From: Burkholderiales bacterium
GTDB taxonomy: Bacteria > Pseudomonadota > Gammaproteobacteria > Burkholderiales > Burkholderiaceae_C
Assembly (NCBI GenBank): GCA_016000265.1
Contig: JAECRL010000002.1
Span: 248,001 to 312,000, forward strand
Direction: 5' to 3'
DNA: 64,000 nt
Under the pieces are notes generated by a model, which had not been told where the DNA came from, did no database searches, and saw only the letters and a list, made by a program, of their open reading frames with translations. A program made the position numbers and the translations under genes. Of this stretch, positions 21,861 through 55,126 are shown one piece after another (position 1 is the stretch's first letter; each line of letters opens with the position of its first letter).

Positions 21861-22370
21861 ATGAACACGCGTCAAGCGCCCCGCTGTGGGGTGCAGGCTG
21901 AACTCGTCCCTGTTGTTTCGGTTGCCGAACGGTCGGTGACGGGGTCTGCCCGTGGTTTCGCCCGCGGTCCCTCCCGTGGCTTCACCCTGCTGGAGTTGCT
22001 GGTGGTGCTGGTCATCATCGGTTTGCTGGCGGGCTACGTGGGCCCGCAGTTCTTCAAGCAGATCGGCAAGTCGGAGAGCAAGACGGCCGCGGCCCAGCTC
22101 GACGCACTCGGCAAGGCGCTCGACCAGTATCGGCTGGACACGGGGCGCTACCCCAGCAGCGAGCAGGGCTTGGGGGCGCTGTGGGTCAAGCCCGCCGACG
22201 AGTCGCGCTGGTGGGGCCCCTACCTGCGCAAGGCCCCACCGAAGGACCCGTGGGGCCGCGAGTACCAGTACAAGGCCCCCGGCCAGCACGGTGACTACGA
22301 CCTGTTCTCGCTGGGCAAGGACGGCCGCGAGGGCGGCGCCGGCGAAGACCAGGACGTCACCAACTGGTGA
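21861..22370 (+). CDS. Major pseudopilin GspG-like (first gene of secretion locus)
   Basis: Forms the pseudopilus of a type II secretion-like machine. 169 residues. The prepilin peptidase site is SRG|FTLLELLVV with Glu at +5, followed by a hydrophobic helix. The C-terminal domain has the GspG features GRYPSSEQGLGAL, DPWGREYQY and DYDLFSLGKDG. The leader before the cleavage site is unusually long, about 40 residues. ATG 21861 is nevertheless supported by GGAAGGA ending 8 bp upstream. It opens a co-directional run of genes that overlap or abut from here to 31393. Confidence 0.9.
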   Translation: MNTRQAPRCGVQAELVPVVSVAERSVTGSARGFARGPSRGFTLLELLVVLVIIGLLAGYVGPQFFKQIGKSESKTAAAQLDALGKALDQYRLDTGRYPSSEQGLGALWVKPADESRWWGPYLRKAPPKDPWGREYQYKAPGQHGDYDLFSLGKDGREGGAGEDQDVTNW

Positions 22371-22381
22371 GGGCGCGCGAC

Positions 22382-23470
22382 ATGAACCGACCGGTTGCTC
22401 AGGGTGGTGCGAACTGGCTGAGCCGGCCCCTCACGCGGCGCGGTGCCGAGTTCCCTCGGCGCCTGTTCTGCCAGGAGCTGGCGGTGCTGCTGGACGCGGG
22501 CATCCCGCTGTACGAGGCGCTGACCACGCTGCGCGAGAAGGAGGAGTCCGCCGACGTGGCGCGGGTGTTGTCGACCTTGACGGCGGCTTTGGCCGAAGGG
22601 CGCACGCTGTCGCAGGCGATGCGCGCGCAGCCTCAGGCCTTCAGCTCGCTGTTGATCGCGTCCATCGAGGCCAGCCAGCGCACGGGGCAGACGCCGCAGG
22701 CTTTGCGCCAGCACGCCGCTTACCTGGCGTGGTTGACGGGCCTGCGCGACAAGCTGGTGAGCGCGGCCATCTACCCGGCCATCCTGATCGGCGCGAGCCT
22801 GTTGGTGATGACCTTCCTGACCATCTTCGTGGTGCCGCGCTTCGCCGAGATCTACGAGGGCATGGGCGGGGAGCTGCCGTTCCTGTCGGGCCTGCTGCTG
22901 CGCATGGGCAGCGCCGTGGGCGAGCACCCCTGGCTGGCGCTGGGCACCGTGGTGTCCCTGTGCGCGGGCGTGGTCGTGGCCTGGCGGGCGCCTGCGGTGC
23001 GCGCCGCGGCCTCGGCCCGTTTGTGGAAGATGCCGGTCATCGGGCCGCGCTTGCGCCTCATCGAGCTGGCCTCGCTGTACCGCACGCTGGGCCTGTTGCT
23101 GCAGGCCGGCGTGGCCGTGGTGCCGGCGCTGGAGGCGTCGGTGGAGCTGGTGGGGCCGTCGCTGCGGCCGTCCTTGTTGCAGGCCATGAAGCGGGTGCGT
23201 GAAGGCGCGCGCTTGTCGGACGCGATGCACCGCCACCAGCTGAGCACGCCGGTGTCGCTGCGCATGATGCGCGTGGGCGAGCAGACCGGCGAGCTGGGCC
23301 CGATGCTGGAGCGCGCGGCGACCTTCTACGACGAGGAGCTGGCCCGCTTCACCGAGTGGGTCGGCAAGGTGGTGAGCCCGGCGCTGATGTTGATCATGGG
23401 CGTGCTGATCGGCGGCATCGTGGTCCTGATGTACCTGCCCATCTTCCAGGTGGCGGAGCAGATCCAGTGA
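22382..23470 (+). CDS. GspF/PilC-family inner-membrane platform protein
   Basis: Polytopic platform that couples the assembly ATPase to pseudopilin assembly. 362 residues with the duplicated T2SSF domain: each half has the LxxLLxAGxPLxxAL-like segment (LAVLLDAGIPLYEAL; LGLLLQAGVAVVPAL). TM helices occur near the middle and at the C-terminus (MLIMGVLIGGIVVLMYLP). ATG 22382 is chosen; a GTG at 22367 overlapping the gspG stop is possible. Its stop overlaps the GTG/ATG start area of the ATPase gene. Confidence 0.93.
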   Translation: MNRPVAQGGANWLSRPLTRRGAEFPRRLFCQELAVLLDAGIPLYEALTTLREKEESADVARVLSTLTAALAEGRTLSQAMRAQPQAFSSLLIASIEASQRTGQTPQALRQHAAYLAWLTGLRDKLVSAAIYPAILIGASLLVMTFLTIFVVPRFAEIYEGMGGELPFLSGLLLRMGSAVGEHPWLALGTVVSLCAGVVVAWRAPAVRAAASARLWKMPVIGPRLRLIELASLYRTLGLLLQAGVAVVPALEASVELVGPSLRPSLLQAMKRVREGARLSDAMHRHQLSTPVSLRMMRVGEQTGELGPMLERAATFYDEELARFTEWVGKVVSPALMLIMGVLIGGIVVLMYLPIFQVAEQIQ

Positions 23471-23475
23471 GCGCG

Positions 23476-25074
23476 ATGGACGTGGTCGATGGCCAGCTGA
23501 ACGGCAAATCGGCATTCATGCCGGACCTCATGCCGGACCTCATGCCGGACTTCATGCTGGAGTGCACGCCCGACTGGCGCGTGTGGCCGCTGGCGCGGGC
23601 CTTGCGCCTGCGCGTGGTGGTGGCGCGCGACGAACGCGGCCAGCTCTGGGCCTTGGGCACGCAGGTCGATGACGTGCTGCTGCGCGAGGCCGTTGCCCGC
23701 AGCGTGCCCCAGCCTTTGCGATGGCGCCAAGTGCACGAAGACACGCTGGCGCTGTGGCTGGCGCAGGGCGAGCAGGCCTTCGAGGCCCGTGGTGCCTTGC
23801 TGGGCTCGACGACCACCGAAGGCTCGGGCGAAGGCGGTGCCCACGTGCACGCCTTGTCGGTGGACACCATCACGCGCGAGACCAGCCAGGTCGTGCGCCT
23901 GCTCGACGCCACCTTGTTCGACGCGCTCAAGGCCCAGGCCAGCGACCTGCACCTGGAGTCCACCGCCACGGGCATGGTCATCCGACACCGGCTTGATGGC
24001 GTCATGGTGCCGGTGGGCGACGTGGGCTCGCGCGAGGTGGCCGAGCAACTCGTCTCGCGCCTGAAGGTGATGGCCGAGCTCGACATCGGCGAGCGCCGCC
24101 TGCCACAGGACGGGCGCTTCAAGTTGCGCGTGCAGCAGTCGGCCGACAGCGGCGTGCGGGAGGTGGACTTCCGCGTCTCCATCATGCCCAGCAGCTTCGG
24201 CGAAGACGCGGTGCTGCGCATCCTGGACCGCTCGCGCCTGTCCGAGGAGGCCCAGGCCTTGAGCCTGGAAGGCCTGGGCTTCGACGCCGACGACGCGGCC
24301 GTGGTGCGCCGCCTGGCGCGCAAGCCCTACGGCCTGCTGCTGGTGACCGGCCCCACGGGCAGCGGCAAGACGACCACGCTGTATGCGGTGGTGCAAGAGA
24401 TCAACGACGGCGCCGACAAGATCATCACCATCGAAGACCCGGTGGAGTACCAACTCGGCGGCGTGGTGCAGATCCCCGTCAACGAGAAGAAGGGGCTGAC
24501 GTTCGCGCGCGGCCTGCGCAGCATCCTGCGCCACGACCCCGACCGCGTGATGGTCGGCGAGATCCGCGACGCCGAGACCGCGCAGATCGCCTCGCAGGCC
24601 GCCTTGACGGGCCACCTGGTGCTGTCGACCATCCACGCCAACAACGTCTTCGACGTGGTGGGGCGTTTCATGCACATGGGCGTGGACCTCTACAACATGG
24701 TCTCGGCCCTCAATGGCGTGGTGGCCCAGCGCCTGATGCGCAAGCTGTGCGTGCACTGCGCCCAACCGTGGCAGCCCACGGGCTCCGACCTGCGCGCTGC
24801 GCAACTGCCGCTGGACTCGCAAGGCCGCTTCATGCGCGCGGTCGGCTGCCCCCACTGTCGTGGCACGGGCTACCGCGGCCGCAAGGCCATCTCCGAGATC
24901 CTGCTGATGGACGACACCTTGCGCGACCTCATCGTCACGCGCGCCTCGCTCATCCAGGTCAAGGCCCACGCGCGCGCCAGCGGCACCCGGCTGCTGCGCG
25001 AGGCGGCGCTGGCCACCGTGCTGCGGGGCGAATCCAGCATCGACGAACTCAACCGCGTGACCCTGGCCGAATGA
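23476..25074 (+). CDS. GspE/PilB-family assembly ATPase
   Basis: Hexameric cytoplasmic ATPase driving pseudopilus assembly. 532 residues. Walker A is GPTGSGKT (292-299), the Asp box is TIEDPVEYQL, Walker B is VMVGEIRD (about 358-365) and the His box is TGHLVLSTIHANN. Two zinc cysteine pairs are present, C425/C428 and C458/C461, as in GspE. The N-terminus carries three 12-bp repeats (MPDLMPDLMPDF). ATG 23476 is used; a GTG at 23467 overlapping the upstream stop is also possible, as are later ATGs within the repeats. The stop overlaps the next ATG. Confidence 0.93.
   Translation: MDVVDGQLNGKSAFMPDLMPDLMPDFMLECTPDWRVWPLARALRLRVVVARDERGQLWALGTQVDDVLLREAVARSVPQPLRWRQVHEDTLALWLAQGEQAFEARGALLGSTTTEGSGEGGAHVHALSVDTITRETSQVVRLLDATLFDALKAQASDLHLESTATGMVIRHRLDGVMVPVGDVGSREVAEQLVSRLKVMAELDIGERRLPQDGRFKLRVQQSADSGVREVDFRVSIMPSSFGEDAVLRILDRSRLSEEAQALSLEGLGFDADDAAVVRRLARKPYGLLLVTGPTGSGKTTTLYAVVQEINDGADKIITIEDPVEYQLGGVVQIPVNEKKGLTFARGLRSILRHDPDRVMVGEIRDAETAQIASQAALTGHLVLSTIHANNVFDVVGRFMHMGVDLYNMVSALNGVVAQRLMRKLCVHCAQPWQPTGSDLRAAQLPLDSQGRFMRAVGCPHCRGTGYRGRKAISEILLMDDTLRDLIVTRASLIQVKAHARASGTRLLREAALATVLRGESSIDELNRVTLAE
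23518..23553 (+). repeat. Three tandem 12-bp repeats in the ATPase gene
   Basis: ATGCCGGACCTC occurs twice and a third copy differs by one base (TTC for CTC). In frame they give MPDL-MPDL-MPDF and offer several in-frame ATG codons. Unit length divisible by three means copy-number change would alter length but not frame. Confidence 0.9.
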
Positions 25075-25862
25075 CCCCCGACGTGGACACCCCTTCCCGC
25101 CAGCCCGCCTGGTTGCAGCGCCTGCGAGTTCGGTGGCAGGTGCGCAGCGCCGTGCTGATGGCGCCGGCTCACGCCCCGGGCGACGCCGAGGCCATCGACG
25201 CGGGCGTGCAGGCCCTGAGCCAATGGGCGCAAGCCCACCCGGGGGCCTCGCTGGACCTTGGTTTGTCATCGCGCTGGTTGCTGTGCGCGGCCACACCAGA
25301 CGCCACCACCGCCGAGCAGGCCCTGCAGCTGGCGGGGCAGCAGTGGGTGCATTACCTTGGGCTGGATGAGGCGAGCCTGCAGGCCGATTGGGTGCTGCAG
25401 CCGGTGGTGAGCCCGCGCGTGCGCCTGGTGTGTGCCGTGCCACGCGCGTTGCTCGAGGGCCTCCACGAAGCCGCCGCCGAGCATGGCGTGCGCTTGCGGG
25501 CGGTCTTGCCTTGGTGGGCGTTTGGTTTGCAGGCGGCCTTGGACGAAGCCGCGCAGGTCGGCGACGCAGCGCCCGTGGGCCCGCTGAGCTGGTGCTGGGA
25601 CGAACCCGGCTGGCGCACGTGCGTGCAAGCCGTGAACACCGCGCGGACCGCAGGTGTGCCGGATTCGTCGTCGGTTGCCGCGTCGGGTTGGGTGGTCGAT
25701 CGCGTCTGGATGAGCGCACCCGATGGGGCCGCGGGCCCGATGGGCTCGGCGATGCCGGTGGCCAGCTTGCCCGCGGCGCCCGAGCACGCAGGTGGCCTGA
25801 CGCCGTCGTGGCTTTGCGAGGGCGATGCGGTCGCCGGGCTGTTGAATCGGAGGTCGGCATGA
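25071..25862 (+). CDS. PilM/GspL-like assembly protein (tentative)
   Basis: A 263-residue protein with no recognisable enzyme motif and no TM. Its place between the ATPase gene and a TM/coiled-coil protein matches that of PilM or MshI in type IV pilus loci, and of the cytoplasmic part of GspL in T2SS. The sequence is Ala/Trp-rich, with alternating strands and helices compatible with the actin-like PilM fold. The nucleotide-binding signatures are not obvious. ATG overlaps the ATPase stop (ATGA), and its own stop overlaps the next ATG, so translation is coupled. The assignment rests mostly on order. Confidence 0.5.
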   Translation: MTPDVDTPSRQPAWLQRLRVRWQVRSAVLMAPAHAPGDAEAIDAGVQALSQWAQAHPGASLDLGLSSRWLLCAATPDATTAEQALQLAGQQWVHYLGLDEASLQADWVLQPVVSPRVRLVCAVPRALLEGLHEAAAEHGVRLRAVLPWWAFGLQAALDEAAQVGDAAPVGPLSWCWDEPGWRTCVQAVNTARTAGVPDSSSVAASGWVVDRVWMSAPDGAAGPMGSAMPVASLPAAPEHAGGLTPSWLCEGDAVAGLLNRRSA

Positions 25863-26500
25863 GGTCGTGGCGTCCGATGTGGCTGGCCTCGCCCGACTGG
25901 GCCGAGGGCCTGAACTTCGCGGGCCCGCGCGTGCGCACCTCGTTTTGGGGCTGGGCTTTGCTGGCGTTCGGGCTGATGGGCGCCTGGCACGCCGCCGACC
26001 TGGCCCGGCAGGCTCATGCCGAGCGCGACGAGGCCCAGGCCACCCTGGCCCGCCTGGAGCGCGGCCAGCAGCAACAGGGCGCGCAGGTGCAGGCCGCGGC
26101 GCAGGCGCGGGAGGCCCGACAAGGTGCGGTGCCCGTGCTCAGGGAAGACGGCCTGCGGCAGGCGGCCCAGCTGGCCTTGTGGTTGGGCCACCCCTGGGGC
26201 CCGGTGCTCGATGAGGTCGACGAGACCGCGCGGCGCAGCGGCGTGGTGCTGATGCAGTTCAGCCTGGACCTCAGCAGCCTGGGGTCCAGCCTGGGGGCCA
26301 GCGGTGAAGGCGCGGGGCCCCAGCCCGAGCTGCGCCTGCAAGCCACCGCCCCCGACGACGTGGCCGCGCTGAGGTGGCTGCAGGCCCTGGGGCCGCGCGC
26401 GGCCATGCGCAGCCGCGAGCCCCTCAGCGAGCCCTACTCGGCCCCCAGCGGCCAGCACACCTTGCGCGTGGACGTGACGCGCACCGGAGGCACCCCATGA
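25859..26500 (+). CDS. PilN/GspL-like bitopic membrane protein (tentative)
   Basis: A 213-residue protein: a short cytoplasmic N-terminus, one TM (about residues 32-50), a Gln/Ala-rich coiled coil (about 52-90), then a small periplasmic domain of ferredoxin-like size. This layout is that of PilN and the C-terminal half of GspL, which dimerise with PilO/GspM. ATGA overlaps exist on both sides. A Gly/Ser run (SLGSSLGASGEGAG) is a flexible loop. The call is from topology and gene order. Confidence 0.6.
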   Translation: MRSWRPMWLASPDWAEGLNFAGPRVRTSFWGWALLAFGLMGAWHAADLARQAHAERDEAQATLARLERGQQQQGAQVQAAAQAREARQGAVPVLREDGLRQAAQLALWLGHPWGPVLDEVDETARRSGVVLMQFSLDLSSLGSSLGASGEGAGPQPELRLQATAPDDVAALRWLQALGPRAAMRSREPLSEPYSAPSGQHTLRVDVTRTGGTP

Positions 26501-27117
26501 AGGCCCCGATCTGGTTGCGCCAACTGGGCGTGCCCGGTGTGTTGGGCGCGGCGCTCTTGCTGGCCTCGGCCTGGGTGATCCTGTCGTGGCTGCCGCGTCA
26601 GCACGCGGCCGTGCAGCAGACCGAGTCGGACACGCGCCGTTTGCGCCACGAGCTGCTGCAGCGCGCCGAGCGGGCGCAAGCGGAGGCCCGCGCGGCCCAG
26701 GCGGTGGACGCACAAGCCCATGCGGTGGCCGATGCCTCGGCCCCATCGCACGCCCTGTGGGCCAGCCTGTGGCGTGACCTGCCCGATGCCTCCCGGCGCG
26801 TGGACCTGCAGCGTGCCGTGCTCGTCTCGGCGCGCGACGCGGGCATCCCGCTGGCGTCGGTGCAGTGGCGCGGCGAGCCCGTCGCCTGGGTGGATGCGGC
26901 GCAATCTGGGGCCCCCCCTCAAGGCCTGTGGCGCCAGCGCCTGGTCCTGCCCGTGCAGGCCAGCTACCCGGCCGTGCGGACCTGGGTGTCGGCCCTGCTG
27001 CGCGAGCCCGCGCTCAGCCTCGACTCGCTCGACATCCAGCGCAGCGACCCGCTGTCCGACCAGGTCAAGGCCCAGGTCAGCGTCTCGCTGTGGTGGCGTC
27101 AGGACAGGAGGCCTTGA
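26497..27117 (+). CDS. PilO/GspM-like bitopic membrane protein (tentative)
   Basis: A 206-residue protein with one N-terminal TM (about 14-32), a coiled coil rich in Arg/Glu/Gln (about 38-75), and a C-terminal domain ending in alternating beta strands (YPAVRTWVSALLREPAL, DSLDIQR). That is the PilO/GspM plan; it would pair with the upstream PilN-like protein. ATG overlaps the previous stop, and its stop overlaps the next ATG as TGATG. Confidence 0.6.
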   Translation: MKAPIWLRQLGVPGVLGAALLLASAWVILSWLPRQHAAVQQTESDTRRLRHELLQRAERAQAEARAAQAVDAQAHAVADASAPSHALWASLWRDLPDASRRVDLQRAVLVSARDAGIPLASVQWRGEPVAWVDAAQSGAPPQGLWRQRLVLPVQASYPAVRTWVSALLREPALSLDSLDIQRSDPLSDQVKAQVSVSLWWRQDRRP

Positions 27118-27728
27118 TGCGCACGCCTTTGATGATCGGCTTGGCTGGGGTGCTCGGCGCCACGCTGTGGCTGTCGTCCCTGGACGAGGGCGAAGGAGGG
27201 GCGGATGCCGTGGAGGTGGTCACCAGCCGGCGGCCTGCCGACGCGGCCCCGGCATCGCCCGGGACCAGGGCACCCGACGCCACGTCACTCAAAGCGACTT
27301 CAACCGCTGCCCCGGCCTCGACCCCCGCTGCCTCGGTGCAAGCCGCGCTGCAGTCCGGCCTCGGCGGCTGGCTGGCGCGCCGCACCGAAGCCGCCACCTT
27401 GCCCCCGGCGCGCCCCATGACCGCGGCCACGCCCTCGGCCTGGGCGGCGCAGCTGCCGCCACCGCCCCCTGCACCGCGCCGCGTGGTGCAGGAGGCCCCA
27501 CCCCCGCCCATGGCACCGCGTTTCCCGCACGCCTGGGTGGGCCGCTTCAACGACGAGTCCGCGTCACGGCCCTTGCAGCGCGCCGTGGTCTCGGGGCCGG
27601 TGTCCACCTGGGTGGTCTCCGCAGGCGACGTGATCGACGGCCAGTGGCGCGTCGACCGCATCCAGGGCCACACCATGAGCCTGACCTACTTGCCCTTGCA
27701 GCAAAGCCAGATCGTGTCGATGAAATGA
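27117..27728 (+). CDS. PilP/GspC-like protein linking platform to secretin
   Basis: A 203-residue protein: an N-terminal TM or uncleaved signal anchor (about 5-20), a long Ala/Pro-rich linker with two polyproline runs, and a compact C-terminal beta domain of about 65 residues. The domain reads WVGRFNDE, WVVSAGDVIDGQWRVDRI, and LTYLPLQQSQ. It has the size and strand pattern of the PilP/GspC HR domain that docks onto secretin N-domains. It directly precedes the secretin gene (ATGA overlap), which supports that role. Confidence 0.65.
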   Translation: MRTPLMIGLAGVLGATLWLSSLDEGEGGADAVEVVTSRRPADAAPASPGTRAPDATSLKATSTAAPASTPAASVQAALQSGLGGWLARRTEAATLPPARPMTAATPSAWAAQLPPPPPAPRRVVQEAPPPPMAPRFPHAWVGRFNDESASRPLQRAVVSGPVSTWVVSAGDVIDGQWRVDRIQGHTMSLTYLPLQQSQIVSMK

Positions 27729-29986
27729 CCATGAGCTTCCACCCACTTTTCCGCCGCCTGAGCCTGAGCCTGCGCTTGCTTGCCGTGTGCGCTGCGCTGG
27801 CCGCTTGCGCCGGCCCGGCTGCTTTGCAGGAAGCCGAGCTGCTGGCCCGCGGCGGCGAGCACGAAGCCGCCGTGCAGCGCCTGCAGCAGGCCGTGGCGCA
27901 AGACCCGGACGATCGCCGCCTGCGCCTGAGCCTCATCCAGGCCCGCGAGCGCGCGGTCACGCAGTTGATCGCCCAGTCGAGCGCGCAAGGGTCGGCGAAC
28001 CGGGACACCACGGGCCCCGCCGCGACGCAGGCGCTGCAGGCCCTGGCCTCGCGCCTGGAGGCTGTTGCGCCACAGCACCCGCGCACGCTGGCGCTGAAGG
28101 CCGAGGTGGCGCGCCGCCAGCGTCACGCTCAGCTGATGCGGGACGCCCAGGCCGCCTTCGACGCGCGCCGCTACGAGCGCGCCGAGTCGATGCTGCGCGA
28201 GCTGATGGCCGAAGACCCCGCGCACCGCACCGCGCGCGACCTGCTCAACCAGGTCGAGACGCTGCGCGCCGAGCAGACCCGCACGCAGACCACGCTCACG
28301 CTCGGCACCGGCCTCAAGCCCGTGACGCTGGAGTTCCGAGAGACCCCGCTCAAGACCGTCTTCGAGGCCCTGGCCCGCGCGGCCAACCTCAATTTCGTCT
28401 TCGACAAGGACGTGCGCGGCGACGCCAAGACGACGATCTTCCTGCGCAACATCTCGGTGGAAGAAGCGCTGCGCGTCATCCTGAGCACGCAGCAGCTCGG
28501 CCACCGCCTGCTCAACGAGAACACCGTGCAGGTCTTCCCCGCCACGCAGCAAAAGCAGCGCGACGTGCTGGAGACCGTCACCAAGACCTTCTACCTCGTC
28601 AACACCGACCCCAAGCAGGCGCAGTCGCTGGTGCGCACGGTGGCCAAGTCGCGCGACGTCTTCATCGACGAGCGCCTCAACATGATGGTGGTGCGCGACA
28701 CGCCCGAGGTGGTGCGCCTCATCGAGCGCCTGATCCAGAGCCTGGACGTGGCCGAGCCCGAGGTGGTGCTGGAGCTCGAGGTCATGGAGGTCTCCAGCAA
28801 GCGGCTCGACGAGATCGGCATCGACCTCGCGGCCTCGGCGTCCTACGGCCTGCCCGGCGCGGCCACCACGGTGTCGTCGGCCAGTGGCTTGAGCTGGCTG
28901 GTGCCCAACCCCGTGGCCGTGGCCAACCTGCGCAGCACACGTGGCGCCAGCAACCTGCTGGCCAACCCGACCATCCGCGCGCGCAACCGCGAAAAAGCCA
29001 AGGTGCTGCTGGGCGAGAAGCGCCCCGTCTTCACCACCACCTCCACGGCCAACGTGGGCGTGTCGGCCTCCGTCACCTACCTGGACGTGGGCCTCAAGCT
29101 GGAGGTCGAACCGCAGGTTCAGCTCGACAACGACGTCACCATCAAGGTGGCCCTGGAAGTCAGCAGCGTGACCAGCGAAGTCAAGGGCCCGCAAGGCTCC
29201 ATCGCCTACCAGATCGGCACGCGCCAGGCCTCGACCACGCTGCGCATCCGCGACGGCGAAACCCAGATCCTGGCCGGCCTCATCAACGACAACGAAAGCC
29301 GCTCCACCTCGGGCCTGCCGGGCCTCAGCGAGCTGCCGATCGCCGGGCGCCTCTTCGGCACCACGACGGACACGCGCGACAAGACCGAGGTCATCTTGCT
29401 GATCACCCCGCGCATCGTGCGCAACGTGGTGCAGCCCGCGGTGGCCGCCGGCTTCCTGCCCTCGGGCACCGAGGCCCAGCCCGGCGCCGTGCCCTTGAGC
29501 CTGCGACCGGGCGTGAGCGCCGTGCGGCCCGTCACCGGCGGGGCCTTGCCTGGCATCGGCGCCAGCCCGCGTGCGCCTTCGCCGGAGGGCCGCCCCGGGG
29601 CCTCGGGTGCCCCGCAGCCTGGCGTCACCGGCCCCGAAGAGGTGATGTCCGGTGCGGCCTTCCAGGTGCTGGTGCACAACCCCTCGGCCCAAGCCCTGAG
29701 CACCACGCTGCAGGTCGACACCAGCGTGCTGAGCATCGAGGCGCCGGGCGGCGACAGCGGCCGCATCAGCCTCACGGTGCCCCCGCGTGGCTCGGCTGCG
29801 GTCATGCTCAAGGCGCGCGCCGACACCCGCTTCGCCGACACCGTGGTCTCGGTGGACACGGGTGGCGAGTCTTTGCGTCTGCGGGTGCGCGACCCGGCTC
29901 AGCCGGATCCGGCCGACCCCGCCGCCGACCCCAACTCACCCCAGCCAGGAGAGGGCGATGCGCCCGGTGTCAGCCCCGAGCGTTGA
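27725..29986 (+). CDS. Lipoprotein secretin with TPR-like N-terminus and cohesin-like C-terminus
   Basis: Outer-membrane secretin, 753 residues. The signal ends in a lipobox (LAAC), so it may self-pilot to the outer membrane. Next come TPR-like helices (about 40-190) and a TonB-N/secretin-N0-like segment (FRETPLKTVFEALARAANLNFVF). N1-type repeats and the secretin core follow (VEPQVQLDNDVTIKVALEVSS, LAGLINDNESRSTSGLPGL, LITPRIV). After the core, a Pro/Gly linker leads to a cohesin-like beta domain of about 100 residues (AAFQVLVHNPSAQALSTTLQV). ATG 27725 overlaps the previous stop; ATG 27731 is an alternative. The next gene starts inside its 3' end. Confidence 0.9.
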   Translation: MTMSFHPLFRRLSLSLRLLAVCAALAACAGPAALQEAELLARGGEHEAAVQRLQQAVAQDPDDRRLRLSLIQARERAVTQLIAQSSAQGSANRDTTGPAATQALQALASRLEAVAPQHPRTLALKAEVARRQRHAQLMRDAQAAFDARRYERAESMLRELMAEDPAHRTARDLLNQVETLRAEQTRTQTTLTLGTGLKPVTLEFRETPLKTVFEALARAANLNFVFDKDVRGDAKTTIFLRNISVEEALRVILSTQQLGHRLLNENTVQVFPATQQKQRDVLETVTKTFYLVNTDPKQAQSLVRTVAKSRDVFIDERLNMMVVRDTPEVVRLIERLIQSLDVAEPEVVLELEVMEVSSKRLDEIGIDLAASASYGLPGAATTVSSASGLSWLVPNPVAVANLRSTRGASNLLANPTIRARNREKAKVLLGEKRPVFTTTSTANVGVSASVTYLDVGLKLEVEPQVQLDNDVTIKVALEVSSVTSEVKGPQGSIAYQIGTRQASTTLRIRDGETQILAGLINDNESRSTSGLPGLSELPIAGRLFGTTTDTRDKTEVILLITPRIVRNVVQPAVAAGFLPSGTEAQPGAVPLSLRPGVSAVRPVTGGALPGIGASPRAPSPEGRPGASGAPQPGVTGPEEVMSGAAFQVLVHNPSAQALSTTLQVDTSVLSIEAPGGDSGRISLTVPPRGSAAVMLKARADTRFADTVVSVDTGGESLRLRVRDPAQPDPADPAADPNSPQPGEGDAPGVSPER

Positions 29987-30452
29987 GCGCAGCCGCGGCT
30001 TCACCCTCATCGAGATGGTGGTGGTGGTGATGATCGTGGGCATCCTCGCCAGCGCGGCGATGCCCCTGGCCGCGCTGCACAAACGCCGCAGCCAGGAGGC
30101 CGAGTTGCGCCAGGCCCTGCGCACCCTGCGCGTGGCGCTCGACGACCACAAACGCGCCTGGGACGCCGGTCGCATCCCGAAAAAACCCGAAGACAGCGGC
30201 TACCCCGCCAACCTCGACGTGCTGGTGCAAGGCGTGCCCGATGCCGGCAGCGCCAAAGGCCAGCGCATCTACTTCTTGCGCCGCCTGCCGCGCGACCCCT
30301 TCGCCGACCCCGCCACCCCCGCCGCGCAGACCTGGTCCACCCGCAGCTACGCCAGCCCGCCCGACTCGCCCGCCCCCGGTGCCGACGTGTTCGACGTGGC
30401 CTCGCGCACCGAGGGCATCGGCCTCGACGGCGTCCCCTACCGGCAATGGTGA
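29958..30452 (+). CDS. Type II secretion-like pseudopilin
   Basis: A 164-residue prepilin-like protein: short basic leader, cleavage at SRG|FTLIEMVVVV with Glu at +5, hydrophobic helix to about residue 38, then a soluble domain with GYPANLDVLVQGV and a proline-rich loop. It overlaps the secretin gene by 29 bp. It is longer after the helix than GspG and lacks the GspG calcium-site pattern, so it may be a second structural pseudopilin of this machine. Confidence 0.85.
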   Translation: MRPVSAPSVERSRGFTLIEMVVVVMIVGILASAAMPLAALHKRRSQEAELRQALRTLRVALDDHKRAWDAGRIPKKPEDSGYPANLDVLVQGVPDAGSAKGQRIYFLRRLPRDPFADPATPAAQTWSTRSYASPPDSPAPGADVFDVASRTEGIGLDGVPYRQW

Positions 30453-31393: not shown

Positions 31394-31460
31394 AGTGTGA
31401 ACTCCGTCAACAAACCGTCATGCCAGCTGCCTAGACTCGATCCGTTCAACTGACATCAAC

Positions 31461-33206: not shown

Positions 33207-33276
33207 GCGCCCCCCCGGATGCAGGGGTCCTGCCATCCGGTGACACATCCCCTCCCCAGCAAACGCCTCTGCATTT

Positions 33277-33290
33277 GATCCGAACGGATC
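33277..33290. promoter_or_regulatory. Palindrome GATCCGAACGGATC, candidate operator
   Basis: Six-base arms flank AA. The 14-mer TGATCCGAAYGGAT recurs at 49410-49423 before the exbB-fusion gene. Confidence 0.45.
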
Positions 33291-33321
33291 ACGGTGCGGC
33301 CCGTCCCTGCACGGCTTGCTG

Positions 33322-33336
33322 GTCACACGCCGTGGC
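33322..33336. promoter_or_regulatory. GTCACACGCCGTGGC, candidate operator copy 1
   Basis: The core CACGCCGTG is a dyad. The same 15-mer with one central base changed lies 95 bp downstream. Confidence 0.4.
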
Positions 33337-33416
33337 TATCTTGGCGGCAGATGCGAGGGGCTGATCGATCAGACCCGAACGGACTAGGGCAGACCCGAGG
33401 TCACGCCCCCACGCCT

Positions 33417-49492: not shown

Positions 49493-51199
49493 ATGAAGAT
49501 CTCGAGCTTGTTCACCACCACGCTGCTGGCCGCAGCGATCGGCTTCCCCTCCCTGGCCAACGCCTGGTGGAACCCCGATTTCAAACACCGCACCCAGGTC
49601 GTCCTCAACACCACGGCCCAGGGCGTTGAAACCAAGGAAGCCCTCTCGGGCGTGGTCGTGCCGGTGCGCCTGCACTCGGGCAATTTCGACTTCCTGGGCG
49701 CCCAGCCCAACGGCGCCGACCTGCGCGTCGTGGCCGCCGACGACAAGACCCCGCTGAAGTTCTGGGTCGAGCGCTTCGACGGCGCCAACGAGCTCGCCGT
49801 GGTCTGGGTCCAGCTGCCCAACACCCTGCCGGGCACCGACAAGAACACCATCCACGTCTACGCCGGCAACGAAGCCGCCGCCGCCGAAGCCACCAGCCCC
49901 GCGCTGTTCGACGGCGCCATGGCCGCGGCCATCTCTTTTGCTGGAAAGACCGGAGAGCCTGCAGCAGACGCCTCCGGCCAGATCGCCTCGGCCAGCCCCG
50001 TCACCCGCGAAGCCACCGGCCTGATCGGCGCGGCCGCCAAGCTCGACGGCCAGCCCCTGGTGTGGTCGTCCGACAAGCTCAAGGCCCCTGGCAACGGCCC
50101 CTACAGCGTCAGCCTGTGGTTCAAGCCCGAGGCCGTCAGCGGCACGCTCTTCAAGCAAGGCCCGCTCAGCCTGGTGATTGACGCCGGCAAGCCCGCCGCA
50201 CAACTGGGCGCCACCACCGCAGCCGGGGGCGAGCTGCCCACCTCGGCGTGGGCCCACCTGAGCGTCACCGTTGGCAACGGCAAGCTCACGCTCTACGTCA
50301 ACGGCGCGCAAGCCGCCCAAGCCGATGTGGCCGCGACCGGCGCGCCCATCGAAGGTGCCCTCAACGTGGGCCAGGGCCTCACCGGCCTGGTCGACCAGCT
50401 GGAAGTGGCCACCACCGTGCGCAGCGCCGACTGGGTCAAGTTCGCCCACGCCGCACAAAGCGCCGACGCCAAGCTGGTGCTGGCCAACACACAAACCCCC
50501 GAGACCGCCGAAGCCGGTGAGGGTCACGGCGAGGCCGGCCACTTCGCCATCCTGGTCGACAACCTCACGGTGGACGCCTGGGTCGTCATCATCATCCTGG
50601 CCGTCATGTTCGTCATCGCCGCCTGGGTGATGTACGACAAGGCCGTGCTGGTGGGCCGCGCCGACAAGGACAACCTCAAGTTCCTCGACGGCTTTCGCAA
50701 CGCCAAGGACGTGCTGGCCGTCTCCACGCAGGACATGAAGCACTCGCAGCTGGCGCGCCTCTACAGCGCCGGCCTGCGCGAGCTCAACAAGCGCGACGTC
50801 GGCAAGGCCGGTTCGCCCCCGCTGTCCGGTGCCTCGCTGGACGCCGTCAAGGCCGCCATCGACGCCGACCTCATCCGCGAAAGCCACACCCTCAACAGCA
50901 AGATCGTGCTGCTGACCATCGCCATCTCGGGCGGTCCCTTCCTGGGCCTGCTGGGCACCGTGGTGGGCGTGATGATCACCTTCGCGGCCATCGCGGCCGC
51001 GGGCGACGTCAACGTCAACGCCATCGCCCCCGGCATCGCCGCGGCCCTGCTGGCCACCGTGGCGGGCCTCGCCGTCGCCATCCCGGCGCTGTTCGGCTAC
51101 AACTACCTGGCCGCGCGCATCAAGAACATCTCGTCGGACATGGGCATCTTCGTCGACGAGTTCGTCACCCGCGTGGCCGAAACCCACGGAGCCCGCTGA
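49493..51199 (+). CDS. ExbB/TolQ/MotA-family proton channel with periplasmic DUF2341 and lectin-like domains
   Basis: A 568-residue fusion. Signal peptide (1-24, LANA|WW). DUF2341-like domain (about 25-125, opening WWNPDFKHRTQV). Concanavalin/LamG-like domain (about 135-330: YSVSLWFKPE, GKLTLYVNG, GLVDQLEV). Then a channel module with TM1 (363-381), a cytoplasmic loop, TM2 (470-502, GPFLGLLGTVVGVMITF) and TM3 (512-540), typical of ExbB/TolQ. The start at 49493 gives the signal peptide; upstream frame extension is meaningless. It heads exbB-exbD-exbD-tonB with 1-18 bp gaps. Ordinary ExbB is about 240 residues without the sugar-binding-like ectodomain. Confidence 0.92.
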   Translation: MKISSLFTTTLLAAAIGFPSLANAWWNPDFKHRTQVVLNTTAQGVETKEALSGVVVPVRLHSGNFDFLGAQPNGADLRVVAADDKTPLKFWVERFDGANELAVVWVQLPNTLPGTDKNTIHVYAGNEAAAAEATSPALFDGAMAAAISFAGKTGEPAADASGQIASASPVTREATGLIGAAAKLDGQPLVWSSDKLKAPGNGPYSVSLWFKPEAVSGTLFKQGPLSLVIDAGKPAAQLGATTAAGGELPTSAWAHLSVTVGNGKLTLYVNGAQAAQADVAATGAPIEGALNVGQGLTGLVDQLEVATTVRSADWVKFAHAAQSADAKLVLANTQTPETAEAGEGHGEAGHFAILVDNLTVDAWVVIIILAVMFVIAAWVMYDKAVLVGRADKDNLKFLDGFRNAKDVLAVSTQDMKHSQLARLYSAGLRELNKRDVGKAGSPPLSGASLDAVKAAIDADLIRESHTLNSKIVLLTIAISGGPFLGLLGTVVGVMITFAAIAAAGDVNVNAIAPGIAAALLATVAGLAVAIPALFGYNYLAARIKNISSDMGIFVDEFVTRVAETHGAR

Positions 51200-51200: not shown

Positions 51201-51608
51201 ATGGCCGGCGACGTCAAAGGCGACCTGCAGGCGTACGACGACATCAACGTCACGCCCATGCTCGACCTCGCCTACGTGCTGCTGGTGGTCTTCATCATCA
51301 TGACGACCGCCTCGGTGCAAGGCGTCAAGGTCAACAGCCCGCTCACGCAGGCCGCCAACAACCTGGCCAAGCCGCAGACCAAGGGCATCACCATCACGGC
51401 CGACGGCCAGGTCTACCTCGACGCCTACCCCGTGAGCATGGAGCAGCTGCAGGCCAACCTGGCCCAGTACAAGGCCGCCAACCCGGCCTTGCCTGTGGTG
51501 CTCAAGGCCGACGCCGCCGCGCAGTACGACAAGGTGATGGAGGTGCTGGAGATCGCCAAGCGCCTGGACATCACCGAAATCGGCCTGGCCACCAAACGAG
51601 CCCAGTGA
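51201..51608 (+). CDS. ExbD/TolR-family protein, first copy
   Basis: A 135-residue partner of the ExbB-type channel. One N-terminal TM (about 22-43) has the proton-relay aspartate in NVTPMLDLAYVLL (Asp22), followed by a periplasmic ExbD fold. It starts 1 bp after the exbB stop. It is about 60% identical by eye to the second copy across the TM segment, and divergent in the periplasmic domain. Confidence 0.94.
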   Translation: MAGDVKGDLQAYDDINVTPMLDLAYVLLVVFIIMTTASVQGVKVNSPLTQAANNLAKPQTKGITITADGQVYLDAYPVSMEQLQANLAQYKAANPALPVVLKADAAAQYDKVMEVLEIAKRLDITEIGLATKRAQ

Positions 51609-51626: not shown

Positions 51627-52028
51627 ATGCAAGTCCAAGACGAAACCAAACCCTACGACTCCATCAACGTCACGCCGATGCTCGACCTGGCCTACGTGCT
51701 GCTGGTCGTCTTCATCCTCATGACCACGGCGTCGGTGCAAGGCCTGAGCATCAACATGCCCAAGCCCAGCAACAAACCCAGCACCGAAAAGCACGAACTC
51801 AAGGTCGTGCAGGTCATGCCCGGTGGGGCGCTGCTGCTCAATGGCGTGCCGGTCACGGCCGTGCAGCTGGAGGCTGAACTGGTGCAGGCCAAACAACGCG
51901 ACCCGAAGATGAGCGTGGCCATCAAGGGCGACGCTCGCTCGCAGTACGCGCAAGTCGTCACCGTGATCGACCTGTGCAACAAGCTGGAGGTGTCCATGGG
52001 ACTGGTCACCTCGCGGATCGGGACCTGA
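51627..52028 (+). CDS. ExbD/TolR-family protein, second copy
   Basis: A 133-residue protein with the same TM motif (INVTPMLDLAYVLLVV) as the first copy and a conserved proton-relay aspartate, but a different periplasmic half (HELKVVQVMPGGALLLNG). The two ExbDs may form a heterodimer in the ExbB5-D2 motor, a way to make it asymmetric. It lies 18 bp after the first copy and 1 bp before the TonB-like gene. Confidence 0.94.
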   Translation: MQVQDETKPYDSINVTPMLDLAYVLLVVFILMTTASVQGLSINMPKPSNKPSTEKHELKVVQVMPGGALLLNGVPVTAVQLEAELVQAKQRDPKMSVAIKGDARSQYAQVVTVIDLCNKLEVSMGLVTSRIGT

Positions 52029-52029: not shown

Positions 52030-52737
52030 ATGGCGAGCACCGAACAGGACCGCAACGCTGACAACGCAGGCGAAGGCGGTGTCAAGCGCTACCTCGTCCC
52101 CGCCGTGCTGGCGCTGCTGCTGGTCGGCCTGGGCGTGTTCATCTACAGCCAGATGGGCTCGGCCAGCAAAGGCCCCAAGCGCCAGACGGTGAAGATCGCC
52201 GTGCTGCCCGACACGCCGCCGCCGCCCCCGCCGCCGCCAAAAGAAGAAAAGCGCCCCGAGCCCAAGCCCGAAGAAAACAAGCCCCAGCCGCAAGAGCAAA
52301 AGCAGGTCGAGGCCCCGCCCGAGCCGCAGCAGCTCAAGATGGAAGGCGCCGCCGGCGACGGCCCCAGCGCCTTCAGCGCCGGCAGCGTCAGCAGCGAGTA
52401 CAAGGGCGGCGCGGTGGGCACCGGCACCGGGGGCGGCACCGTGGGCGACCGCCTGGCCGCGTCCTCGTATGGCAACGCCGCCAAGCGCGAGCTCGGCGCC
52501 TTCCTCAACCGCGAAGACGGCTTGCGCCGAGCCGGCGACTACAAGGTGCCCATCGGCCTGTGGGTGCGCGCCGACGGCTCTCTGGAGCGCTGGGAGTTGC
52601 TGGGTGGCAGCGGCAGCGCCGACACCGACGAGCTGCTGAAAAAAGCCATGAGCCGATTCCCGGGCTTCAAGAACCCGCCCCCGCCGAACATGCCCTGGCC
52701 CATGCGCCTGCAACTGACCAACCGCATGACCGGCTGA
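52030..52737 (+). CDS. TonB-like energy transducer of the TPS-linked motor
   Basis: A 235-residue protein: short cytoplasmic N-terminus, one TM (about 21-40) and a strikingly Pro/Glu/Lys/Gln-rich rod (about 60-105, including eight consecutive prolines). A Gly-rich hinge leads to a C-terminal TonB-like domain of about 75 residues (VPIGLWVRADGSLERW, MPWPMRLQL). It starts 1 bp after exbD2. The dedicated rod suggests it reaches an outer-membrane client encoded beside it: the TpsB, the porin, or another receptor. Confidence 0.88.
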   Translation: MASTEQDRNADNAGEGGVKRYLVPAVLALLLVGLGVFIYSQMGSASKGPKRQTVKIAVLPDTPPPPPPPPKEEKRPEPKPEENKPQPQEQKQVEAPPEPQQLKMEGAAGDGPSAFSAGSVSSEYKGGAVGTGTGGGTVGDRLAASSYGNAAKRELGAFLNREDGLRRAGDYKVPIGLWVRADGSLERWELLGGSGSADTDELLKKAMSRFPGFKNPPPPNMPWPMRLQLTNRMTG

Positions 52738-52764: not shown

Positions 52765-54474
52765 ATGAACCACCGCCCCCCCCTCTTTCGCCCCGCCTTG
52801 ACGACCCTCGCGCTGGTGCTGTCTTGCGCCCTGCCTGCGCACGCCAACGAGCGCGAGTCGCTGGAGAGCCTGCGCCAGACCACCCGCGCCCTCATCGACG
52901 CCCTCGTCGAGCAAGGCGTGCTCAGCCGCGACAAGGCCGATGCCCTGATCCGCTCGGCGCAGGAAAAAGCCCGGCTCGCCGCCAACGAAGCGGGCGCCAC
53001 CAGCCCGGCGACCTCGGCATCCGGCAAGCCGGTGCTGCGCGTGCCCTACGTGCCCGACAGCGTGCGCGCCCAGCTGCGCGACGAGGTCAAGGACGAGATC
53101 GTGGCCCAGGCCCGCGCCGAGCGCTGGGGCGTGCCGAGCGCGCCGTCCTGGGTCAACAACATCAAGATCGACGGTGACATCCGCCTGCGCCACCAGCAAG
53201 ACAGCGCCAGCAGCGACAACACCTCGGCGCTGACCTACGTGGCCGCCGAGATCCAGAACGCCAACGGCATCACCCGCATGCCCGAGTTCACCAAGTACGC
53301 CGAGAACGCGCTGGGTGTGCAGCCGCTCACCGACACCTCGGAGGACCGCTCTCGCCAGCGCGTTCGCCTGCGCCTGGGGCTCACCGCGAAGGTGACCGAC
53401 GAAGTCGGCGTGGGCCTGCGCCTGGCCACGGGCAGCGCCACCGACCGCGTCTCGACCAACCAGACCCTCGGCCAGAACTTCAACAAGTACCAGCTGTTCG
53501 TGGACCGCGCCTTCGTGCGACTGGACCCGGCCGAGTGGGTGAGCATCCAGGGTGGGCGCATCCCCAACCCCTGGTTCGGCACCGAGATGACCTGGAACGA
53601 AAACCTCAACTTCGAGGGCTTCGCCGCCACCTTCCGCCAACCCGCGGCCGAAGAGGCCTTCGCGCCTTTCCTGACCCTGGGCTACTTCCCCCTGCGTGAA
53701 GCGACGCCGCCAGCGCGCAACTCCCGCTCCCTGTGGGGCGCACAGCTTGGCGCCAACCTCGCACTCGACTCGCGCACCCGCGTCAAGCTGGGCCTGGCGT
53801 ACTACAGCTACAACAACCTCGAGGGCCGCTCGGACCCCAACTACGCCATCGTGGGCAGCAGCGTGCCGGTGGGGGTGAACTACGGGGGCTACGAGTACCC
53901 GTCGGGCCTGCGCCAGCGCGGCAACACCCTGTTCGAGACGAACCCCTTGCTGTCGGGCTCCCTGGACACCGACCCCGTCTGGGGCCTGGCTTACCGCTTC
54001 AAGCCGCTGGTGCTCACGGCGTCCGCCGAGTTCACCCACTTCAGCCCCTTCAACATCCTGGCCACGGCCGAGTACGCCAACAACACGGCCTTCAGCGCGT
54101 CCGACTTCCGCCGCCGCGCCAACCCGGCGTTCTACAACAACGTCGATCCGGGCGGCAGCCGCGAGGGCTACCAGTTCAAGCTCGCCGTGGGCGCCACCGA
54201 GGTGCGCGACTTCCAGGACTGGCAGGTGGCGTTCAGCTACCGCCACGTCGGCTCCGACGCCGTGCTTGACGCCTTCACCGACAGCGACCTGGGCCTGGGC
54301 GGCACCAACGTGCGCGGCTACACCCTGGGCTTCACCTACGGCCTCTATCGCAACACCACCCTGGGCATGAAGTACCTGGCCGCCGAGAACATCAACTCGA
54401 CGATCAACAGCAACTTCCCCGACGCGTCCTACAAGGTCAACTCTCTTCAGGTGGATTTGAATGTTCGCTTCTGA
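52765..54474 (+). CDS. Outer-membrane porin-like beta-barrel
   Basis: A 569-residue protein with a signal peptide (LPAHA|N near residue 28) and a coiled-coil periplasmic N-terminus (about 30-80, RESLESLRQTTRALIDAL). A linker leads to a large barrel of alternating strands that ends in Phe. It fits the 'putative porin' family with an N-terminal trimerising helix. No plug domain and no TonB box were seen, so it is not a classical TonB-dependent receptor although it sits in a TonB/ExbBD operon. It follows the TonB-like gene by 27 bp. Confidence 0.85.
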   Translation: MNHRPPLFRPALTTLALVLSCALPAHANERESLESLRQTTRALIDALVEQGVLSRDKADALIRSAQEKARLAANEAGATSPATSASGKPVLRVPYVPDSVRAQLRDEVKDEIVAQARAERWGVPSAPSWVNNIKIDGDIRLRHQQDSASSDNTSALTYVAAEIQNANGITRMPEFTKYAENALGVQPLTDTSEDRSRQRVRLRLGLTAKVTDEVGVGLRLATGSATDRVSTNQTLGQNFNKYQLFVDRAFVRLDPAEWVSIQGGRIPNPWFGTEMTWNENLNFEGFAATFRQPAAEEAFAPFLTLGYFPLREATPPARNSRSLWGAQLGANLALDSRTRVKLGLAYYSYNNLEGRSDPNYAIVGSSVPVGVNYGGYEYPSGLRQRGNTLFETNPLLSGSLDTDPVWGLAYRFKPLVLTASAEFTHFSPFNILATAEYANNTAFSASDFRRRANPAFYNNVDPGGSREGYQFKLAVGATEVRDFQDWQVAFSYRHVGSDAVLDAFTDSDLGLGGTNVRGYTLGFTYGLYRNTTLGMKYLAAENINSTINSNFPDASYKVNSLQVDLNVRF

Positions 54475-55126
54475 TCAAGCCATGGGCCCCGTGCAGCGCG
54501 GCGTGATCGCGCTGTTGCTGTCGCTCGCTGCGACGCTCGCCACGGCCCAATCCGACAAAGACGCCGAACAAGTCAAGCGCCTGCGCCTGCAGGTGCGCCA
54601 GATGCAGCAACAGCAGCAGGAGGCACAAGACGCCCAGGCCCAGGCCGACCGCGCTCGCCAGCAGTCCGAGCAGGCGCTCAAGTCCCAGGAGGCCGACCTG
54701 CAAAAGCAGCGCGCCACCGCCGCCGGGGCGTCGCGCCGCGTGGCCAGCCTGCAAAAGGAGCTCGACACCTTGAAGACCGAGCACGCCCGCGTCACCGGGG
54801 AGCTGGCCGCCTTGCAGGCGCAGCACGCCGCGCTGTCGGGAACTTCGCGCCTGGCGCAGGAGCAGGCCCAGGCCGCCCAGGCTCGCCTGAGCCAGGAGGG
54901 CGCCCGCCTGCAAACGCAGATCAAGGCCTGCGTCGCCGACAACGCCGAGATGGCCGACCTGGGCCTGGAGCTGCTGCAGCGCTACGAGAACAAGGGCCTG
55001 GGCGAGGTGCTCTCGGCCCACGAGCCCTTCGTGCAGTCCGGGCGCGTCAAACTGGAGAACCTCAAGGCCAGCTACCAGCAGCGACTCGAGGCCGCCCGGG
55101 TCAAGCCCGCCGAGGCTGTCCGCTGA
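54461..55126 (+). CDS. Periplasmic coiled-coil protein
   Basis: A 221-residue protein with a signal peptide (ALLLSLAATLATAQ) followed by about 130 residues of Gln/Ala/Glu heptads (about 30-165), then a helical C-terminal domain of about 55 residues with LGLELLQRYENKGL. It overlaps the porin 3' end by 14 bp; a later ATG at 54482 is possible. It recalls periplasmic accessory coiled coils in other Ton systems (such as TtpC/DUF3450 or CpoB), but no named family is recognised. Confidence 0.75.
   Translation: MFASDQAMGPVQRGVIALLLSLAATLATAQSDKDAEQVKRLRLQVRQMQQQQQEAQDAQAQADRARQQSEQALKSQEADLQKQRATAAGASRRVASLQKELDTLKTEHARVTGELAALQAQHAALSGTSRLAQEQAQAAQARLSQEGARLQTQIKACVADNAEMADLGLELLQRYENKGLGEVLSAHEPFVQSGRVKLENLKASYQQRLEAARVKPAEAVR

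Follow-up and report, generated by a model that had tools for sequence, protein, structure and literature searches.

A gene island of Pseudomonas aeruginosa (hxc-lapA-pdtA-phdA-pdtB-exbB2-exbD2-tonB4-PA0696), which belongs to the PUMA3/VreI regulon and is linked to phosphate starvation, brings together a type II secretion system (T2SS), a large exoprotein of the two-partner secretion (TPS) type, the transporter TpsB, ExbB, ExbD and TonB proteins and a putative porin (PMC2729926, PMC7035377). The hxc-lapA-pdtAB-exbB2D2-tonB4-porin genes are described as being under VreI/PhoB control, and the Ton system of the island is termed 'still uncharacterized' (PMC7035377). PUMA3, the TPS genes, ExbBD and PA0696 have already been reported together in several other bacteria (PMC2729926). 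In P. fluorescens SBW25, the hxc-psp-pflu2428 region likewise combines a T2SS, a phosphate-limitation-induced phosphate-binding exoprotein and a 4083-residue protein with a haemagglutination domain; the exoprotein, Psp, is a DING protein secreted mainly by Hxc, and psp lies between hxc and the gene for the 4083-residue haemagglutinin-like protein (PMC2225411). This study concerns a locus at positions 21861–55126 of a 64,000-nucleotide stretch of contig JAECRL010000002.1 from a Burkholderiales bacterium, the whole of which is here called the window. The locus corresponds, in Burkholderiales and beyond, to the hxc-pdtAB-exbB2D2-tonB4 island of Pseudomonas, and the present analysis adds to it a phosphate context and a conserved tail of the exoprotein TpsA. 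The joint reading that we favour, with a probability of roughly 0.4, is that of a phosphate-starvation surface-secretion locus in which a T2SS-like machine would export a protein with the fold of the phosphate-binding protein PstS, TpsB would export TpsA, and the motor formed by ExbB, ExbD and TonB would grip the tail of TpsA.

An initial annotation of the window, made from the sequence alone, had pointed out that Hxc, PdtA/PdtB and exbB2/exbD2 lie side by side in P. aeruginosa, and the published descriptions bear this out (PMC7035377, PMC2729926). As in the PdtA/PdtB cassette, the genes for TpsB, ExbB, ExbD, TonB and the porin are adjacent in the window, with the gene for TpsA between those for TpsB and ExbB. 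PdtA is taken by us to carry a C-terminal DUF3739 domain, as TpsA does. Unlike the P. aeruginosa island, the window has a machine of another T2SS branch, places TpsB before TpsA and contains two ExbDs, and it adds genes for an EpsA-like regulator, a PEP-CTERM protein and a PstS-fold protein. No VreA/VreI/VreR-like gene (extracytoplasmic function sigma factor, anti-sigma factor) was found among the open reading frames scanned in 21861–55126. No paper in the collection searched names DUF3739. In literature searches on TPS and Ton systems, which apart from the papers cited covered titles and abstract openings, no report was found of a TpsA protein as the target of a Ton motor.

Two-partner secretion genes and the Ton motor

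The TPS pair (plus strand, as are all of the genes of the locus) consists of TpsB (35803–37443), with POTRA_2 and ShlB domains and CdiB/FhaC profile matches, and the 3955-residue TpsA (37477–49344), with ESPR, an FHA-type N-terminal domain above the NCBIfam cut-off and DUF3739 (57.3 bits against a cut-off of 27 bits). The POTRA/ShlB barrel and the N-terminal TPS-type domain identify the pair as a two-partner secretion system, and the same parts, with ESPR, are found in the classical systems FhaB/FhaC, HMW1 and CdiA/CdiB. It is followed by an ExbB/TolQ-like channel protein (MotA_ExbB) preceded by DUF2341 and LamG (Laminin_G_3) domains (49493–51199, with the start chosen to fit 568-residue relatives), by two ExbD proteins (51201–51608, 93 bits; 51627–52028, 79 bits) and by a TonB-like protein (52030–52737) with a membrane anchor and a proline-rich linker, both recognized by eye, and a weak TonB-type C-terminal domain (sub-threshold TonB_2). 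A Porin_5 outer-membrane porin (52765–54474, 502 bits) and a coiled-coil protein (54461–55126) complete the set; the latter, in which the coiled coil and a signal peptide were recognized by eye, has no family above cut-off and is conserved in relatives. ExbB and ExbD both score above the Pfam cut-off. In NCBIfam the ExbB fusion scores nearer TolQ (132 bits) than ExbB (71 bits) and the second ExbD scores better as TolR than as ExbD, and neither reaches an ExbB/TolQ or ExbD/TolR cut-off. DUF2341 was described in 2025 as an N-terminal appendage, of unknown function, of the channel subunits of MotAB/ExbBD-type 'generic ion transporters', in passages that make no mention of TPS (PMC12505986).

The association of these genes was followed in two draws of genomes, one of 398 genomes from the phylum, 14 of them with DUF3739, and one of 250 genomes from the bacterial family, 28 of them with DUF3739 above cut-off and 222 without. 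In the family draw, DUF2341 was present in 27 of the 28 DUF3739 genomes against none of the 222 others (Fisher p 2e-35, in a test that treats genomes as independent); it lay at most 3 kb from DUF3739 in 26 of the 27 and 46 kb away in G496. In the phylum draw, the ExbB fusion lay beside the TPS locus in 11 of the 14 genomes. Loss of the motor with persistence of the tail was considered for the other three and set aside, as the fusion lies on another contig in G130 and G268 and G284 has a contig-edge piece fitting its ExbB part; G413, from the family draw, alone remains as a possible case. G474 was counted among the 222 and not the 28, as its DUF3739-like stretch is below cut-off and lies, with a TPS domain, inside an open frame of 11675 residues (C1, near 1305023–1338364).

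At least 300 ExbB-fusion loci were confirmed in named records, and the following counts refer to the best 80 of these, which may lack records very close to that of the window. ExbD was found in 80, TonB in 77, Porin_5 in 75, the coiled-coil protein in 71 and TpsB or DUF3739 in 74, and ExbD, TonB, porin and TpsB/DUF3739 were all present in 71; the six loci without TpsB or DUF3739 sit on stretches of 4.5 to 21.7 kb. By their titles, the 80 loci range over Burkholderiales, Pseudomonas, Sphingobium, Bradyrhizobium, Methylomonas, a Myxococcaceae and Chthoniobacterales/Spartobacteria. Records titled Pseudomonas have the order TpsB-ExbB-ExbD-TonB-Porin_5, and in five of them the available stretch includes DUF3739. 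The genome of the window is Aquabacterium-like: the closest of the 80 loci is from A. lacunae, with an ExbB fusion 84% identical to that of the window, and among the matches listed the fusion shares 78–87% of its residues, across more than 90% of the length, with proteins named Aquabacterium. The co-inheritance seen in these counts gives strong support to the conclusion that the TPS pair and the ExbB/ExbD/TonB motor belong to one system.

Three loci titled Chthoniobacterales/Spartobacteria (L185, L195 and L218) have the TpsB-ExbB-ExbD-TonB-porin cassette, in L218 with adjoining GspD-E-F-like genes. A 5.8 kb contig titled Myxococcaceae (L180) carries a PstS-like gene beside a DUF2341-ExbB fusion and ExbD, and no TPS gene was found on this contig.

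The tail of TpsA and the putative client of the motor

An alignment of 28 TpsA C termini shows DUF3739, a variable linker and then a short conserved motif, which in the window is LTVDLLGFG (residues 3911–3919, positions 49207–49233). A pattern for the motif, drawn after these tails had been viewed, matches 35 of the 37 tails, against 14 of 1569 tiles cut from these proteins, and an independent test with a matrix was run because the pattern was made in this way. The matrix was built from 27 distinct motifs (one of the 35 training motifs, from G360, was a wrong regex pick and was left in); five of 43 test tails were dropped for sharing 60% identity or more with a training tail, leaving 38, and the controls were 20 TpsA proteins chosen by length and place, none with DUF3739, from which four cut by contig or stretch ends were dropped, leaving 16. 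The background 99th percentile was exceeded by 27 of the 38 independent tails and by none of the 16 control TpsA of the same bacterial family with an intact end (p 1e-6); in contrast to the class of the window, these 16 DUF3739-less TpsA are without the tail motif. In an AlphaFold2 model, the C terminus of TpsA has a strand-rich, beta-helix-like part and, after it, a disordered tail in which the motif lies (predicted local distance difference test, pLDDT, below 50); a known fold for this region was sought, and no structural match was found at E 0.001. As modelled, a strand-like motif in a disordered tail is a feature suited to a strand-pairing partner.

The obvious candidate for such a partner in the periplasm is the TonB-like protein, which combines a membrane anchor with a proline-rich linker and a C-terminal domain. 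A TonB-dependent receptor of the locus itself was considered as the client of the motor and rejected, as the genome has nine such receptors and the window none. The tail of TpsA is taken as the client because it bears the strand-like motif, because the TonB-like candidate is at hand and no TonB-dependent receptor is found in the window, and because the cassette is nearly always found with TpsB/TpsA. Two precedents support this choice: the C termini of HMW1 and HxuA have been proposed to stay in the periplasm as an anchor (PMC5422565), and the export of PopC by Myxococcus xanthus needs Oar/ExbB/ExbD/TonB (PMC6434023). In the PopC system a Ton system likewise takes part in protein export; the outer-membrane partner there, a TonB-dependent transporter, carries a TonB box (PMC6434023), whereas the window has no such transporter and the partner would be the exoprotein. 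In its most specific form, which we consider doubtful, this would be force-driven TPS: TpsA would carry a periplasmic TonB-box-like handle, and a dedicated TolQ/ExbB-ExbD-TonB motor with a lectin domain would pull on this handle through TpsB, so that the proton-motive force would tension, retract or release a surface fibre under phosphate starvation.

The same genes allow the motor to be read as serving Porin_5, an account that we regard as somewhat doubtful. TonB would then gate or energize the uptake of phosphate compounds through the porin, and the T2SS-like and TPS machines would place scavengers and an adhesive scaffold on the surface; the whole would be a single island for phosphate uptake, with no force on TpsA. 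Porin_5 comes right after the tonB gene in the window, it is found in 75 of the 80 named loci with TonB in each, and the phosphate-gene neighbours described below fit such uptake; however, Porin_5 has no plug domain by Pfam, no motif of the TonB-box kind was seen by eye at the mature N terminus of 12 Porin_5 sequences, and the conserved tail of TpsA and the tight TPS link would be left unexplained. Alternatively, and in our view improbably, the tail could be a plain anchor, with the motif lodged in TpsB or its POTRA and tethering TpsA without the motor, whose job would differ. C-terminal anchors have been described for other TpsA, such as HMW1/HxuA (PMC5422565), and a strand-like motif placed after a long linker would suit one, but the rarity of motor-less TPS of this kind would not be explained, and many Pseudomonas-like tails bear, by eye, a second copy of the motif further on. 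This second copy has a conserved end, SPVQVLGxGxL...LTxEER, for example in L204, L209, L211, L214 and L221.

The T2SS-like machine and the layout of the locus

All genes identified by Pfam and NCBIfam in 21861–55126 are on the plus strand, with intergenic gaps mostly below 100 bp and the largest, of 308 bp, at 33206–33515; the initial annotation had described a one-stranded, mostly near-contiguous locus with the same parts, and every part that it named was found. Its lower boundary at 55126 has to be given up as a sharp edge, because a DUF1840 gene on the same strand (55169–55516) begins 42 bp past the coiled-coil gene. Genes for an HlyD-type adaptor and an AcrB-type resistance–nodulation–division pump, ordinary in kind, lie downstream at 56383–60814.

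The T2SS-like machine comprises 11 genes. It begins with the major pseudopilin GspG (21861–22370; Pfam T2SSG; NCBIfam GspG 173 against a cut-off of 88.85), a GspF-like inner-membrane protein (22382–23470; T2SSF 153 bits; GspF equivalog 251 of 424 bits) and a GspE-like ATPase (23476–25074; T2SSE 414 bits; GspE equivalog 468 of 630 bits). Four genes then occupy the place of GspC, GspL and GspM, which were not matched by name in the window: PilM/GspL-like (25071–25862), PilN/GspL-like (25862–26500), PilO/GspM-like (26497–27117) and PilP/GspC-like (27117–27728). None of the four has a Pfam or NCBIfam match. Of two profiles searched, that of the PilO-like protein matches PilO (3jc8, E 7e-4), which makes it the only one tied by sequence to a known family; the others are named by position, with relatives of the first in the genus and in G408, G521 and G609, of the second in G627, G547 and G429, and of the PilP-like gene, for which a profile search of its own gave no match, in other loci. 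The 'PilM-P-like' block of the initial annotation is therefore supported by sequence for one gene of four, and for the other three by order and size. A GspD-like secretin (27725–29986; Pfam Secretin, Secretin_N and STN) and three further pseudopilins, A (29958–30452), B (30460–30885) and C (30890–31393), end the machine; N_methyl is found in A and B, and C, without family match, has a pilin-like N terminus by eye and is conserved in relatives. GspD, E, F and G all match their Pfam families, and the NCBIfam equivalog cut-off is reached by GspG and not by E, F or D. The machine had been called different from Hxc and much smaller: it does belong to another T2SS branch, but its 11 genes equal the 11 of Hxc (PMC2225411).

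Behind the machine follow an EpsA-like LuxR-type regulator (31461–32297; GerE; EpsA, TIGR03020, 167 bits, just below the cut-off of 170), an ankyrin-repeat protein with a signal peptide by eye (32307–33206; Ank repeats), a PEP-CTERM protein (33515–34387; PEP-CTERM 33.5 bits) and the PstS-fold protein (34477–35706). Three exosortase genes (PF09721) on contigs C6 and C9 of the same genome fit the PEP-CTERM protein and the EpsA-like regulator.

Gene neighbourhoods were compared, by profiles built from the window's own proteins, in 36 loci (35 and the window). They cover 20 of the 25 further DUF3739 genomes of the family, those of G413, G405, G506, G624 and G468 being left out for short contigs, and the second contigs of G155 and G200 in the phylum draw were also left out. 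Twenty-two are of the window's type, which covers the window itself and 21 further loci in which a gene for the regulator, the PEP-CTERM protein or a PstS-like protein is present. In relatives of this type the order is regulator, PEP-CTERM, PstS-fold, TpsB, TpsA, ExbB, one or two ExbDs, TonB, Porin_5 and coiled coil, and the gene set, with most of its arrangement, recurs beyond chance in several genera and in G360, which belongs to a second family of the bacterial order. The order varies locally: in G494 and G589, TpsB comes ahead of the PEP-CTERM and PstS-fold genes, and tpsB sits among pseudopilin and regulator genes.

The machine adjoins the TPS genes in 12 of the 22 loci, the window included; in two of these, G478 and G609, it lies behind the coiled-coil gene, and in G589 it was counted as adjacent only in part, since the stretch ends in gspD. 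It is reduced to the secretin in two loci, was not found in the compared stretch in seven (in one of which, G440, the contig ends behind the ExbD gene) and was placed in no class in G582, where 6 kb of upstream sequence is available. At matches kept at E 1e-20, pseudopilin A occurs in 58 of the 250 family genomes, 25 of the 28 with DUF3739 against 33 of the 222 without (p 2e-15), and in 24 of 25 DUF3739 genomes when three are excluded, namely G379 and G496, for their Pseudomonas-like neighbourhoods, and G413, on the sole basis of its DUF3739 score; one row of the underlying alignment carries an upstream frame before the pseudopilin, and the census mixes paralogues, because several genomes, including that of the window, have a second such machine. 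In the latter genome a paralogous GspG-F-E-(O-P)-D-pseudopilin set on another contig (C2:142000–172000; L102/L103) has no TPS genes in 30 kb, and a machine private to the locus was rejected on this account. In FastTree phylogenies of E, D and F, TPS-linked copies occur on either side of the main split, and where TPS-bearing genomes have a detached copy it falls among the linked ones, a pattern that could reflect either an ancient link that was later broken in places or several separate joinings.

The T2SS-like machine is a frequent companion of the locus, outside its core, because it is detached or reduced in many loci, has paralogues and gives a tree without a single linked clade. An indivisible 33-kb system is rejected on the same grounds, the T2SS half being separable and its TPS-linked copies not forming one clade. 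The single surface-structure system put forward in the initial annotation thus stands for the TPS pair and the motor, which travel together, and only partly for the T2SS: in the count of gene neighbourhoods that it proposed, the TPS-motor block recurs, and the T2SS-like block is adjacent in 12 of 22 loci and absent from the compared stretch or secretin-only in nine.

Eight loci (G469, G568, G471, G457, G562, G571, G410 and G532, labelled L066, L086, L078, L082/L083, L063/L064, L058, L055 and L075) carry a gene for a subtilase (S8) that diverges from the gene for the regulator or the secretin; they comprise six of the seven machine-less loci, both secretin-only loci and none of the 12 with an adjacent machine. 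This subtilase may process TpsA or replace the lost neighbour.

Phosphate context and proposed mechanism

The protein encoded at 34477–35706, with a signal peptide by eye, had been listed only as a secreted protein; its predicted structure, which that listing missed, has the PstS fold. The AlphaFold2 model (22 sequences) has a pLDDT of 75.8, and its best Foldseek matches in the PDB are phosphate-binding proteins: 4gd5 (E 2.9e-8; template modelling score 0.69 by target and 0.43 by query), 9l8j (E 1.6e-5) and then 1twy, 7xg7 and 2z22 (E 0.001–0.007). By this fold it is a putative phosphate-binding protein. No PstS-type Pfam match was found in the 22 members of its family at E 0.1, and unlike Psp of SBW25, the window's protein is only a predicted T2SS cargo and its family has no significant Pfam match.

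A gene for a GlpQ-type glycerophosphodiester phosphodiesterase, an enzyme of phosphate scavenging (20543–21784, minus strand; Pfam GDPD 135 bits), diverges from the locus and is also found beside it in G429, G627 and G408. Between it and gspG lies a Pho-box-like site (21778–21795, plus strand) with two mismatches to CTGTCATNNNNCTGTCAT, which is found again in three other genomes of the genus (G627, G547 and G429), and a weaker site with three mismatches precedes the regulator (31404–31421, plus strand). Both sit just before plus-strand genes, and it is their positions alone that stand out. Over the 36 loci, 13 Pho-box-like hits fall in core promoters, in ten loci, and one of 150 permuted patterns gave as many. 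Phosphatases of unrelated families (PhoX, PhoD and GlpQ by Pfam) lie beside the locus in relatives, and a metallophosphoesterase and a glycosyltransferase, named by eye, in G408 and G268. PhoX, counted at 140 bits or more by a line set after the list had been viewed (one near gene has 144 bits), gave 34 genes in 13 of the 22 genomes searched, with seven within 10 kb of the locus against 0.14 expected, although five of the seven had been noticed before the count was planned and two of the genomes share a genus. The locus is likely to be switched on under phosphate scarcity, and the sites before its genes would place it under PhoB.

The clustering could instead be that of a regulon only, with modules triggered by low phosphate adjoining each other and acting separately, which we consider quite improbable. 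The separable T2SS half and the phosphatases of unrelated families that come and go beside the locus agree with such an arrangement, but the TPS, motor and porin genes stay together far more tightly than the phosphatases do, in proteobacterial genomes and in genomes that by title are of Verrucomicrobia type, and two genomes (G494 and G589) have their T2SS and TPS genes interleaved.

In the joint reading of a surface-secretion locus, phosphate starvation would turn the genes on through PhoB. The T2SS-like machine may carry the PstS-fold protein, as Hxc carries Psp in P. fluorescens, and export of the 3,955-residue TpsA is predicted to go through TpsB. The tail of TpsA would remain periplasmic, a location also proposed for the C termini of HMW1 and HxuA. 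The TonB-like protein would pair with this tail, and the proton-motive force would then pull on, tension or release the exoprotein, with Porin_5 as putative outer-membrane partner and the coiled-coil protein as putative periplasmic partner.

A number of points, including the limits just given with the PhoX counts, weigh against this reading. The pairing of TonB with the tail is a conjectured one: the C-terminal domain of the TonB-like protein is sub-threshold in both Pfam and NCBIfam, its profile matches solved TonB/HasB/TolA chains at E 0.04–0.07, behind six low-complexity or unrelated chains, and the likeness of the motif to TonB boxes is loose. Eleven of the 38 independent tails fall below the matrix threshold, most of them looking by eye like weaker variants. 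The tonB gene directly precedes that of Porin_5, a client of equal plausibility, the genome contains five further MotA/ExbB-type genes, and G413 has a DUF3739 fragment on its contig and no such ExbB. In many relatives the T2SS half lies apart from the rest. As regards phosphate, the two Pho-box-like hits of the window are no more than chance (2.27 expected), the 89 hits over all loci against a permuted mean of 54 show the pattern to be commoner everywhere, and core-promoter sites occur in just ten of the 36 loci, some of them in sister genomes; phosphatases lie near 11 of the 36 TPS loci against none of 19 T2SS-only loci, which are shorter and for which no correction was made, and no PhoX lies beside the window. 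Among published results, hxcR of P. fluorescens was not induced by phosphate limitation (PMC2225411), and P. aeruginosa insertion mutants in tpsA, tpsB, the tonB homologue and PA0696 were as virulent as the wild type in zebrafish, an assay of virulence and not of secretion (PMC2729926). A review of TPS states that type V translocation is powered by no gradient (PMC5422565).

If the force-driven form of the reading is true, this would be a Ton motor with the secreted protein itself as its client, and the function of exbB2-exbD2-tonB4 would be explained. Type V secretion has been held to need no energy source (PMC5422565), and the tight co-inheritance of the motor with one class of TpsA, together with the conserved tail that the 16 controls lack, makes the role of the motor readily testable. 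The phosphate context also ties a giant surface protein, found in many environmental bacteria, to phosphate hunger.

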